Origin: Oscillospiraceae bacterium | Lineage (GTDB): Bacteria; Bacillota; Clostridia; Oscillospirales; CAG-382 | Length of the DNA stretch: 64,000 bases | NCBI GenBank assembly: GCA_015064485.1 | Contig: SVSD01000006.1 | Coordinates: 1 to 64,000 of the forward strand | Direction: 5' to 3' | In this document: piece by piece, positions 1 to 3,373 of the stretch | Numbering within the stretch: the stretch's first letter is position 1 | Layout: each line of letters starts with the position of its first letter | Program-made: the position numbers and the translations under genes | The notes under the pieces: model-generated | Database searches by the model: none | What the model saw: only the letters and a program-made list of their open reading frames with translations | Told to the model about the DNA's origin: nothing

Positions 1-292
<292 letters not shown>

Positions 293-356
293 AAGAGTAA
301 AAATTATGAGTCTTATTCAGTTTTGAAGGTACACCTGAAAAGGTTCCCGAGGAAAT

Positions 357-432
357 GCACCTTTAGCTCAGTTGGTAGAGCAACTGACTCTTAATCAGTG
401 GGTCCCGGGTTCGAATCCCTGAAGGTGCACCA
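357..432 (+). tRNA. tRNA-Lys (anticodon CTT)
   Basis: A complete cloverleaf can be drawn. The acceptor arms GCACCTT and AAGGTGC pair, the D arm contains TAGCTCAGTTGGTAGAGC, the anticodon stem ACTGA/TCAGT encloses the loop CTCTTAA (anticodon CTT, reads AAG), and the T arm has GGTTCGAATCC. The CCA end is encoded. It lies between 23S and 5S in the rRNA operon and is probably cut from the same precursor. Confidence 0.97.
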
Positions 433-438
433 AATATA

Positions 439-527
439 GTCAGTGTCTTTAAGGAACTTGACCGAAAATGTTCAAGTTCGGAAGTTTTCAAGAAAACTTC
501 CATATGAGAGAAAGAAATTATCTCATA
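439..527 (+). other. tRNA-Lys to 5S spacer with three tandem hairpins
   Basis: The spacer holds three back-to-back inverted repeats: GAACTTG/CAAGTTC (454-460 with 473-479), GGAAGTTTTC/GAAAACTTCC (480-489 with 492-501) and TATGAGA/TCTCATA (503-509 with 521-527). It starts with a 14-base copy of the 5S 5' end (GTCAGTGTCTTTAA at 439-452, again at 550-563). The hairpins are likely precursor-processing sites, which is inference. Confidence 0.6.
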
Positions 528-549
528 CTCCTTGCCGATATTGACAAAA

Positions 550-666
<117 letters not shown>

Positions 667-1422: not shown

Positions 1423-1517
1423 TAAATAAAGACGGCGGTAAGCCCGAACTGCTGAACATGTCAAAAAAGACCCGCAGCTTACACCCGAGATGCCCAATCG
1501 GAGACAATACCACCGCC
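1423..1517 (-). ncRNA. Hairpin RNA 1 of a six-unit array
   Basis: From the start predicted by its promoter (G at 1517), the minus-strand transcript opens with GGCGGT and closes with ACCGCC (1512-1517 with 1434-1439), then runs into GTCTTTATTTAT. Inside, GTAAGC/GCTTAC, CCGA/TCGG and GTC-TTTTTT-GAC can also pair, giving a branched fold of about 95 nt. There is no ORF with a ribosome site. It is the longest and most downstream member of the array. I do not recognise it as a known RNA family. Transcription is inferred from the promoter and terminator only. Confidence 0.6.
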
Positions 1518-1523
1518 GAATAC

Positions 1524-1552
1524 AGTATAGTTGAAAACAGCTTTGTTGTCAA
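1524..1552 (-). promoter_or_regulatory. Promoter of hairpin RNA 1
   Basis: On the minus strand TTGACA (1547-1552), a 17-base spacer and TATACT (1524-1529). The spacer begins with a dyad AACA-N4-TGTT also present in the promoters of RNAs 2 and 4. Confidence 0.8.
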
Positions 1553-1581
1553 TATTTTTTGCCAGCAATTGATTTTTTAAA

Positions 1582-1649
1582 ATAAAAAAGTAAGCATACG
1601 CTCAGCGGCTAACAAGAACGCTGCGCCACAGATCGAGGGATATGCTCAC
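1582..1649 (-). ncRNA. Hairpin RNA 2 (paralogue of RNA 4)
   Basis: The predicted transcript starts GTGAGCATA at 1649 and folds with AGCATA/TATGCT (1641-1646 with 1593-1598), then CCCTC/GAGCG and GUGGC/GCCGC, around a loop containing GTTCTTGTTA. It ends in CTTTTTTATTTT, so the whole RNA doubles as its own terminator. It is the same length as RNA 4, keeps the segments GTGAGCATATCC, CGATCTG, TTGTTAG and TATGCTT, and differs from it partly by compensatory changes in the stems. No known family is recognised. Confidence 0.75.
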
Positions 1650-1655
1650 AACAAA

Positions 1656-1684
1656 AGTATATCCTAAAACAACTTTGTTGTCAA
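1656..1684 (-). promoter_or_regulatory. Promoter of hairpin RNA 2
   Basis: Minus-strand TTGACA (1679-1684) and TATACT (1656-1661) are exactly 17 bases apart; the spacer starts with the AACA-N4-TGTT dyad. Confidence 0.85.
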
Positions 1685-1711
1685 CAGATTTTTTGACATC
1701 AATTTGAGGAT

Positions 1712-1781
1712 AAAGAAAAACCATAAAGCTTGAAACCGAGTCGGACACATCGTGGTTCGAGCAGTTTGAAGTTTATGGCTT
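1712..1781 (-). ncRNA. Hairpin RNA 3 of the array
   Basis: The minus-strand RNA pairs CCATAAA with TTTATGG (1772-1778 with 1721-1727), extended inward by CTT/AAG and AAAC/GTTT past small mismatches. The apical part holds CGAACCACGATGTG and CCGACTCG. The outer stem is followed directly by TTTTTCTTT. The predicted length is about 70 nt, and no ORF fits. It shares architecture but no clear sequence with RNAs 2 and 4. Confidence 0.65.
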
Positions 1782-1787
1782 AATACT

Positions 1788-1815
1788 ATTATATGCGAAA
1801 TACGATAAAAGTCAA
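1788..1815 (-). promoter_or_regulatory. Promoter of hairpin RNA 3
   Basis: Minus-strand TTGACT (1810-1815), 16-base spacer, consensus TATAAT (1788-1793). Confidence 0.75.
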
Positions 1816-1834
1816 TATAAAACTGTTCAGATAA

Positions 1835-1903
1835 AATAAAAAAGCAAGCATACCATCAGGGACTAACAACAACGATGCGTCCCAGATCGATGGATATGCT
1901 CAC
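1835..1903 (-). ncRNA. Hairpin RNA 4 (paralogue of RNA 2)
   Basis: The RNA starts GTGAGCATA at 1903 and forms AGCATA/TATGCT, CCATC/GATGG and GGGAC/GTCCC around the loop GCATCGTTGTTGTTA, then ends in CTTTTTTATTTT. Compared with RNA 2, an A-U pair becomes C-G in one stem and an A-U pair becomes G-C in the next, while a G-C pair becomes U-G. These changes support a selected RNA structure read from this strand. About 69 nt; no coding potential. Confidence 0.75.
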
Positions 1904-1909
1904 AGTAGT

Positions 1910-1938
1910 AGTATATCCGAAAACAATTCTGTTGTCAA
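1910..1938 (-). promoter_or_regulatory. Promoter of hairpin RNA 4
   Basis: Minus-strand TTGACA (1933-1938), 17-base spacer with the AACA-N4-TGTT dyad, TATACT (1910-1915). Confidence 0.85.
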
Positions 1939-1949
1939 TACATATAGAA

Positions 1950-2008
1950 TAAAAAACATCGGGAGGGCGACGGTGCCCTGTCTGCATTACAGAACGGCCC
2001 GCTCACTA
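1950..2008 (-). ncRNA. Hairpin RNA 5 of the array
   Basis: The predicted RNA contains CTGT/ACAG and GGGC/GCCC hairpins (the latter 1975-1978 with 1965-1968) and ends CCCGATGTTTTTTAT. An outer inverted repeat, ACATCGGG at 1956-1963 with CCCGATGT at 2011-2018, overlaps the -10 box, so it could form fully only in RNA read from upstream. The 5' end and exact extent are therefore the least certain of the six units. Confidence 0.5.
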
Positions 2009-2014
2009 TCCCCG

Positions 2015-2043
2015 ATGTTATCACAAAAGAGGATCTTTGTCAA
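2015..2043 (-). promoter_or_regulatory. Promoter of hairpin RNA 5
   Basis: Minus-strand TTGACA (2038-2043), 17-base spacer, TAACAT (2015-2020). The -10 box lies inside the outer inverted repeat of the unit. Confidence 0.65.
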
Positions 2044-2111
2044 CCATAGATTTCTGAAATCATATTTATAGAAGAGGTTTTTTAAAATTACAGACATTTT
2101 ACTATATATAA

Positions 2112-2184
2112 ACAAGAAAAGAAGTCATAACTATCTGACTCAGCCGAGGTACAATTCCTTGGGAAGTTAAATAGTTATGACTTC
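2112..2184 (-). ncRNA. Hairpin RNA 6 of the array
   Basis: The minus-strand RNA begins with GAAGTCATAACTAT and ends with its perfect 14-base complement (2171-2184 with 2121-2134), followed by TTTTCTTGTTT. The inner 36 bases contain CCAAGG/CCTCGG, which can pair with one wobble. The predicted start (G at 2184) coincides with the first base of the stem. About 73 nt, no ORF. It is the most upstream unit of the array. Confidence 0.7.
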
Positions 2185-2190
2185 AATAGC

Positions 2191-2219
2191 ATTATACACA
2201 AAATAATATCAAGTGTCAA
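2191..2219 (-). promoter_or_regulatory. Promoter of hairpin RNA 6
   Basis: Full consensus on the minus strand: TTGACA (2214-2219), 17 bases, TATAAT (2191-2196). It overlaps the first codons of the truncated ORF on the other strand. Confidence 0.88.
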
Positions 2220-3373
2220 TGGGGGAACAATTCAATAAAAAAGAAAACACCGAGGCCATTGCCACTGGAGCCAGTGGCTCTAAAATGGCATTAACAAACC
2301 TCGATGTTAATGATAGTATAACCGAAAAAGGTTCGAATGTCAATACTTCAAATGATGATGTTGAGGAAAGGACTGCATCAGAAAGTTTGATTTCAATTGG
2401 GGAATATAACAAAAACAGCGAATATATACCTTCGAACAAAAAAGCGCAGGATATTTATAACCGAAATTTAAACGCAATGCTCCGCAAAGCGGAAAGTTTA
2501 TTTTCTGTTCCGCACGGAGAAGCTGTTGCGCACATAAAACCGATTATCGAGGAAATGGCGGCAAAGCTTGTGAATCGAAACGGCAATATCTCAGATGATG
2601 AATATTTTAATCTGACTTTGGAGCTTATCGGAAGAGCTCAATATATCGACAGCGAGTTTTACGATATGTATAAGGATCTGAAAAAGACTCTTCGCAATAC
2701 TCCCATATCGGTAAATAATTCGGTTAAAAATTCTTTTTCTCATTGGAATGATTTCAGAAAATCCACAATGGGCGTTTTGACGATATCAAATGAAGGTATG
2801 CCGCTTGATTCTGTTTATAATGAGCTTTCGGATAATTATCCCGAGTTTTTCCCGGAAGATCTTCACGGAGAGGACCAGCTATACAAACTTCTTGAAGTTG
2901 CAAAGAATATAAAAGTAGTCAACAGAGGTTATGCTGAATACTTCGGTGATAATGCCGAGGAAATGGCTCACTCTATGATGACAGAGTTTAAACGGTATAT
3001 TCAAAATGAAATTGCCCCCGAGCTTTCGTCTCTTGAGAGATATGATGCTGAAATAAAAGGCAAAATAGCGACAGCAAACGATTTTGATGTTGAAAATTTC
3101 GATATCAAACAAGCTATGAATAACAGCAAACAGGCAAATGCTTTGCGAAAGAAGATTCAAAATGCAATGAATAAAAATGTACTTACGCAAAGAGATAAGC
3201 TGATGATCAAACGCATAGTTGACGGCGAAATGGATTATAGCGAACTGCCGGAGGATGTAAACCGAAAGGCAATAGGAGAAATTTCAAAGCTTGAGAATAT
3301 GTATGAAAAGAGGTCTGTAAAATCGTTTACAGACCTCTTTATTAAAATCAAACCTTTGAAATATCAACAGTAA
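2213..3373 (+). pseudogene. Truncated fragment of a probable mobile-element polyprotein
   Basis: An open frame of 386 codons runs from a stop at 2204, but neither the GTG at 2213 nor the ATG at 2219 has a ribosome site, and the consensus promoter of hairpin RNA 6 overlaps them. The protein is acidic and helical, with segments such as SHWNDFRKSTMGVL and EFFPEDLHGEDQLYKLLEVA. These recall internal parts of very large polyvalent phage/plasmid proteins of gut Clostridia; this is from memory and not verified. Its end reads through a hairpin at 3307-3340, so the last 20 or so residues are probably not native. Both ends therefore look cut. An intact gene with a remote start is not excluded. Confidence 0.5.
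3307..3340. terminator. Hairpin between the ORF fragment and the large operon
   Basis: Fifteen perfect base pairs (3307-3321 with 3326-3340) enclose the loop ATCG. The stem ends in AAA/TTT on both sides, but the U-tract is short in either direction. It can serve the minus-strand operon that ends at 3348. Confidence 0.7.

Follow-up and report, generated by a model that had tools for sequence, protein, structure and literature searches.

Introduction

RNA antitoxins that act in trans on a toxin protein have been described (PMC12373285, PMC8860590). Type III toxin-antitoxin systems (ToxIN/AbiQ, CptIN, and TenpIN) and the AbiF-RCd22 system use RNAs of some tens of nucleotides that are repeated in arrays, and the AbiF RNA acts on the protein in trans (PMC12373285). 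MuF toxins of temperate phages carry C-terminal toxin domains, and putative immunity genes usually lie after them (PMC5576092). The passages of a study of polyvalent proteins that treat these domains assign MuF-C to the PBECR domains, which have the BECR ribonuclease (RNase) fold, propose packaging and injection of these proteins, and present the RNase activity of PBECR and MuF-C domains as a prediction (PMC5512222). Here, we describe an array of seven putative small RNA genes on the minus strand (positions 1426-2343) of a stretch of 64,000 nucleotides (nt) from an Oscillospiraceae bacterium (GenBank assembly GCA_015064485.1, contig SVSD01000006.1, positions 1 to 64,000), referred to as the window, together with relatives of these genes that lie at the ends of toxin-like domains in phage large polyvalent proteins (LPPs). 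It seems rather probable that the units encode antitoxin or immunity RNAs directed at RNase domains of the BECR type that phages deliver, and that the arrays represent orphan immunity RNAs.

The likeness to Type III systems would include the mode of action, as an RNA that blocks an RNase-like protein is proposed here by analogy. However, Type III antitoxin repeats lie directly upstream of the toxin gene, are co-directional with it, and are read through a terminator, whereas the units described here lie inside the open reading frame (ORF), on the antisense strand where the domain ends (3′), and each RNA gene has its own promoter and terminator within a giant phage ORF. ToxI consists of pseudoknot repeats of about 36 nt, in contrast to the hairpins or branched RNAs predicted here. 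The toxins of the Type III and AbiF systems are ToxN/AbiQ, CptN, TenpN, and Abi_2, whereas MuF_C, LPD3, and PBECR3 domains are involved here, and the arrays have no toxin. Similarities to the polymorphic MuF toxins (PMC5576092) and their orphan immunity genes are toxin-like C-terminal domains of phage proteins that need self-protection, a class-specific determinant directly after the toxin domain, and orphan determinants in toxin-free genomes. The immunity determinant of polymorphic toxins is a small protein gene after the toxin, but here it would be an RNA encoded on the opposite strand inside the ORF. The PBECR/MuF-C/LPD polyvalent proteins are the hosts of the embedded units, and RNA genes at domain ends are not mentioned in those passages of the study that deal with these proteins (PMC5512222). 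No prior description of the RNA family was found in open-access full texts, and it appears to have been overlooked owing to its antisense location in coding sequence.

Seven predicted RNA genes of a common plan

The units of the window array (u0 to u6; Table 1) all consist of a sigma-70 promoter, a stem-loop RNA of about 60-95 nt, and a U-tract, and the two ends of each RNA are complementary, so that a stem is closed at the predicted start site. All seven promoters match 10-12 of the 12 consensus positions, and adjacent units are separated by 12-73 nt. The units are predicted from these features to be transcribed. A detector with thresholds set in this analysis, which required a promoter and a U-tract together with a stem closed at the start site, found exactly seven units at positions 1400-2400, all on the minus strand. 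Dinucleotide-preserving shuffles of this kilobase (n=200) yielded a mean of 0.015 units and a maximum of 1, and the remaining 61.6 kb of the window gave two weak matches. The units u3 and u5 are 83% identical over 112 nt, while the others differ in sequence and share only the plan. A preliminary description of this DNA had listed six units, all of which were found at their places, but it had overlooked u0, which lies just upstream. This unit is antisense to the N-terminus of a polyvalent-protein fragment, and its promoter spacer is also present in arrays of two other genomes (G036 and G063). In searches of Rfam 15, none of the window units had a match even at E<=10, and related RNAs from outside the window had none above the gathering cut-off, which supports the earlier statement that no known family was recognized.

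Related units lie antisense at domain ends of polyvalent proteins

When 99 related genomes were searched at the DNA level, u4 turned out to have a relative in G002, a genome from the same genus, and further arrays were found in two other genomes. In G002, the units are located antisense inside polyvalent-protein genes, immediately after MuF_C and PBECR3 domains. Polyvalent genes from other genomes usually contain a single strong unit, which is encoded on the opposite strand and directly follows a PBECR3, LPD3, MuF_C, or unnamed domain, and the Pfam matches of the unit-linked proteins are MuF_C, LPD3, PBECR3, PBECR5, and LPD38. This connection with phage proteins had escaped the preliminary description.

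For quantification, domain loci were sampled without regard to the RNA. An antisense unit was located precisely at the domain's 3′ end in 35 of the 68 loci, namely at 15 of 19 MuF_C, 15 of 25 LPD3, and 5 of 24 PBECR3 domains. A unit on the sense strand was found at the domain end in none of the 68 loci, and shuffles gave 0.3%. Of the 15 MuF_C units, 13 terminate 7-16 nt within the last codons of the domain.

The strand complementary to the unit promoter encodes a recurrent linker motif of polyvalent proteins, S-I-x-x-x-x-x-V-N (window 2213-2350, L026, L028). A shared regulator had been considered behind the conserved promoter spacers, but this idea was dropped because the spacer in LPPs is the reverse complement of the linker peptide motif. 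Weak DNA matches of the u4 promoter in many relatives were discarded, as most of them were ordinary strong promoters in front of tRNA or protein genes. One polyvalent gene (G099:C15; L089/L116/L128) contains several LPD3 and MuF_C domains with an antisense unit after each, and two of its units have identical promoter spacers, as if domain and RNA gene had been duplicated as a cassette.

The RNA class follows the domain class

The similarity of RNA cores was higher within a domain class than between classes (16.7 versus 12.5, permutation p=0.0002), and the nearest neighbor of a core belonged to the same domain class in 30 of 34 cases. The RNAs of the MuF_C class have an inner hairpin, GGGC-AATTGGA-GCCC, that is shared from Clostridia to Burkholderiales and to phages of E. 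coli and has variants such as GGGG-AATTGGA-CCCC and GGAA-TATTGGA-TTCC. In a MuF_C RNA model of 15 sequences, 12 of the 13 pairs changed on both sides, and the covariation was 0.446, compared with 0.218+-0.025 in shuffled controls and a maximum of 0.287 in slid ones. The PBECR3 RNAs look branched when their sequences are inspected by eye, combining a CGTTTCGGACG hairpin with a second stem, CTGxGGG; their MAFFT alignment was too poor for a covariance model.

A class could be found for three units of the window. The u6 core matched the unit L067 with a score of 52, versus 23+-4 for shuffles, which places it in the PBECR3 class. u4 has 76% identity to a unit of G002 that follows a MuF_C domain. 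u1 is the only match in the window of the MuF_C-class covariance model R1 (29.2 bits, with a rough E-value of 0.016), and its AATTGTA loop recurs beside a MuF_C domain of Burkholderiales (L258). As u6 falls into the PBECR3 class and u4 and u1 are MuF_C-like, the window array is, judged by sequence, a mixture of RNA classes.

The strict link between domain class and RNA class across phyla would also be expected if the RNA were a bound cofactor or guide, that is, if domain and hairpin RNA were packaged in the virion as a ribonucleoprotein and the arrays supplied the RNA. The overlap of the RNA gene with the domain end is loosely similar to the arrangement of omega-RNA and TnpB. However, the RNA is encoded on the opposite strand, it has no target-like variable region, and arrays occur in genomes that have no MuF_C domain to load (see below), which makes a cofactor role improbable.

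The class-specific RNAs are not confined to Clostridia; the samples were drawn from a few bacterial orders. A pattern scan for a -10 box and the loop hairpin yielded 11 viral and 83 genome contigs, and 31 of 95 sites directly adjoin the MuF_C C-terminus, in most cases at 23, 26, or 29 nt; a 17-domain MuF_C profile was too diverse for a pattern search. In a Burkholderiales sample that was picked by domain alone, all seven MuF_C loci had a hairpin and a U-tract at the domain end, and the loop was AATTGGA, AATTGTA, or a close variant in six of them. Two sequenced cultured phages carry a unit, Pasteurella phage Pmp11 and Escherichia phage PhiR5_2, the record of which gives E. coli K-12 MG1655 as the host. 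When three Clostridia MuF_C domains were used as queries against the INPHARED phage set, two had no match and the third had two distant matches.

Orphan arrays occur in genomes without MuF_C

Beyond the window, orphan arrays of 12 (L179) and 7 (L161) tandem units stem from rabbit-gut Clostridia. Four complete units and the start of another are present in L163/G036, 5-6 units are present in G291:C25, and single orphan units exist too. MuF_C was not found in the genomes of L179, L161, and L163/L189. Conserved ORFs were not found in the array regions, the features of which are promoter, hairpin, and U-tract. The earlier proposal of independent genes for small structured RNAs is supported by promoters, terminators, covariation, and recurrence across many genomes.

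These arrays bear on the explanation that the units are not RNA genes at all, but linker-coding sequence or hairpin DNA for domain shuffling (attC-like, or like miniature inverted-repeat transposable elements), the reverse complement of which mimics promoter and terminator. The units do lie at domain boundaries and in the reading frame, and the recurrent linker motif is found opposite the promoter. In many array units, however, no frame stays open through the unit on the opposite strand, and promoter, stem, loop, and U-tract are nevertheless kept. Near-consensus promoters, U-tracts, class-specific loops, and compensatory changes in orphan arrays are further arguments against this explanation, which appears very improbable. 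The idea that the hairpins are mere artefacts of linker coding was rejected on account of the closed frames of orphan arrays together with the compensatory changes. Concerning a likeness to integrons, the arrays hold no cassettes, and no integrase was noticed, though no search for an integrase or attC boxes was made.

A prophage array of E. coli matches units of several phages

The unit of PhiR5_2 matches 120 complete E. coli genomes, mostly over the hairpin of about 70 nt only and in unannotated DNA. The four sites that were examined belong to prophages and are flanked by a PerC-family gene on one side and by later prophage genes on the other, and the gene order is ssb, a ProQ/FinO-family gene, the PerC-family gene, and the array (L267-L270, 2216-2945). 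It is conceivable that the ProQ/FinO-family RNA-binding protein is a partner of the array RNA. The array has one TATAAT box, which is followed by five hairpins (hp1 to hp5), the last of which is the terminator. Every hairpin has a loop of the MuF_C class (AAYTGRA in nearly all copies), and the stems differ. At least 80% of the five-hairpin array is held by 112 of 5426 E. coli genomes.

The array hairpins match LPP genes of different phages with identities of 88-100%, and the matches are confined to the hairpin. hp1 matches the unit in the polyvalent gene of PhiR5_2 at 94%. hp2 is 100% identical over 61 nt to the LPP unit of PhiR12_3 and 98.4% identical to those of Stx-type phages and LPD38-protein genes, while hp3 matches another LPD38-protein gene at 88-95%. 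On the phage side, the matches of hp1-hp3 are antisense to the coding sequence, beside MuF_C; hp4 and hp5 were found essentially in arrays only. Among the array copies, compensatory stem changes (G-C to U-A, U-A to G-C, and A-U to G-C) are present in hp1, hp3, and hp4, and a few pairs are broken. In another sequence (L274, NZ_CP060083.1), an LPD38-domain polyvalent gene is annotated as frameshifted, and its antisense unit is intact and 100% identical to that of PhiR5_2.

The main rival explanation is antisense silencing in cis or in trans: the RNA would pair with the mRNA of the polyvalent protein via kissing hairpins, and the arrays would silence the LPP genes of incoming phages. The units are always antisense to the gene, an encoding that is shared with Type I antitoxins and cis-antisense RNAs (35 of 68 loci here, never sense), and small hairpin RNAs with a strong promoter and an intrinsic terminator that are antisense to a gene are also typical of copy-control and FinP-type RNAs. 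In addition, the UUGG of the loop agrees with YUNR, a motif of antisense RNAs. The near-identity of hp2 to the LPP units of several phages (98-100%) would be expected for full pairing with the mRNA, and hp2 is perfectly complementary to some LPPs. However, unlike FinP-type RNAs, the units are not at the 5′ untranslated region or the translation start, but there is one per toxin domain, deep in genes of 6-8 kb, and the arrays lie away from any sense gene. The array stems differ from the LPP units by compensatory changes, so the fold is kept and complementarity is lost. The similarity of u4 to known LPP units is also limited (76%), and u6 is similar in its core only. Moreover, proteins that are carried in the virion would be made already. 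We thus regard antisense silencing as unlikely, the compensatory changes in the arrays speaking against it.

The matches of array elements to several different phages are reminiscent of CRISPR arrays, but the elements are whole promoter-RNA-terminator genes (in E. coli, a run of hairpins), and not repeats and spacers. No cas genes were seen near the arrays, though they were not searched for. The Pas small RNAs, which were described as base-pairing RNAs, are also encoded in prophages of pathogenic E. coli (PMC13192938). Their neighbors are esterase, holin, and lysozyme genes or capsid and tail genes, in contrast to the ssb-ProQ/FinO-PerC site of the array. The genomic contexts reported in the Pas preprint and in the phi24B 24B_1 paper both differ from that of the E. 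coli array.

Genomic surroundings of the window array

The array is flanked by the terminal part of an rRNA operon and by an LPP gene fragment, in agreement with the preliminary description, in which its neighbors were an rRNA operon and a fragment of a mobile element. A kinase-like gene is also present on the rRNA-operon side. Relatives of the polyvalent fragment were sought in viral and genome contigs, and none were found. Domains of the MuF_C, PBECR3, and LPD3 classes were not found in the genome of the window (G000). Arrays or polyvalent genes adjoin rRNA or tRNA genes in three genomes (window 1-666, L027 2560-2780, L026 15956-16190); such genes are typical integration sites.

Table 1. Features of the window around the RNA gene array
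Feature	Positions	Strand	Characteristics
rRNA operon end	1-666	plus	23S, tRNA-Lys, 5S; adjoins the array
u6	1552-1426	minus	TTGACA-17-TATACT; longer branched RNA; PBECR3 class (by core similarity)
u5	1684-1583	minus	TTGACA-17-TATACT; hairpin; U-tract; frame on opposite strand closed
u4	1815-1713	minus	TTGACT-16-TATAAT; hairpin
u3	1938-1837	minus	TTGACA-17-TATACT; hairpin; U-tract
u2	2043-1952	minus	TTGACA-17-TAACAT; hairpin; U-tract
u1	2219-2116	minus	TTGACA-17-TATAAT; hairpin of ~70 nt with inner AGG-AATTGTA-CCT loop; MuF_C class (by covariance model)
u0	2343-2241	minus	TTGACA-17-TATACT (2343-2315); hairpin RNA of ~69 nt; U-tract
ORF, LPP fragment	2213-3373	plus	phrog_22978, E 5.5e-15; 5′ end runs into u0

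The truncated LPP fragment abuts the array, parts of which have broken frames, as would be expected if the array were a decayed remnant of a polyvalent gene without a present function. However, domain-coding remnants were not found in the gaps between the units, all seven promoters are intact, and comparable orphan arrays recur in unrelated genomes. A mere remnant is therefore very improbable.

Proposed function of the RNAs

Immunity by RNA is the best fit because a domain-specific RNA lies beside each domain, mixed orphan arrays occur without the domain, and array elements match several phages. In this model, phages would carry RNase-type toxin domains in giant polyvalent proteins, which are probably injected with the DNA. 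Each toxin domain (MuF_C, LPD3, or PBECR3) would be paired with an RNA gene on the opposite strand that gives rise to a stable, class-specific hairpin RNA. This RNA may bind and block the cognate domain, as ToxI blocks ToxN, which would leave the producing cell unharmed. Chromosomes and prophages that retain tandem arrays of RNA genes without a toxin might thereby resist the injected toxins of other phages. Of the three roles suggested in the preliminary description, a defense or toxin-antitoxin RNA is now best supported, since relatives are tied one-to-one to toxin-like LPP domains and orphan arrays exist in genomes without MuF_C. A decoy is a possible way for an RNA to neutralize a nuclease, whereas a plain antisense RNA has become less likely for the arrays.

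The predicted structure of MuF_C is confident (pLDDT 88). RNases of the BECR fold have a conserved His in an N-terminal helix and a Ser/Thr in a late strand; in the MuF_C alignment A3, at the level of sequence, a His is invariant and a Ser/Thr before Y/F is mostly conserved. Several observations weigh against RNA immunity. A Foldseek comparison of the MuF_C model with solved structures had no significant match (best E 0.025); the highest listed TM-scores, 0.35-0.45, were those of RelE/ParE/CdiA-type toxins, but with E>0.05. No class was found for u0, u2, u3, and u5. The fraction of PBECR3 loci with a unit is low, though most of the negative loci are solo genes and not parts of polyvalent proteins; two plasmid-borne solo MuF_C genes lack a unit as well. 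The E. coli arrays use one common promoter, unlike those of Clostridia, and the high identity of hp2 is equally expected of a pairing antisense RNA. Furthermore, the hairpin at LPP sites also codes for a peptide (GLQLP and variants), which confounds the conservation of the loop there. The arrays remove this ambiguity.

The arrays may, in addition, constitute a heritable RNA memory other than CRISPR, in which immunity RNA genes of many phages would have been gathered by recombination, each element directed at one class of toxin domain, and which would protect against injected proteins. We put this forward tentatively and with less confidence than RNA immunity itself, considering it about as likely to fail as to hold, or slightly more so. 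If it is true, a direct case would be the E. coli array and its hairpins of 88-100% identity to LPP genes of different phages. The RNA family links widespread polyvalent proteins of unknown action, with MuF_C, PBECR, and LPD3 domains, to small RNAs. According to this view, some of the toxins that phages inject would be under the control of RNA, their targets could be found by the pairing of each domain with its RNA, and the arrays would represent an immune repertoire.
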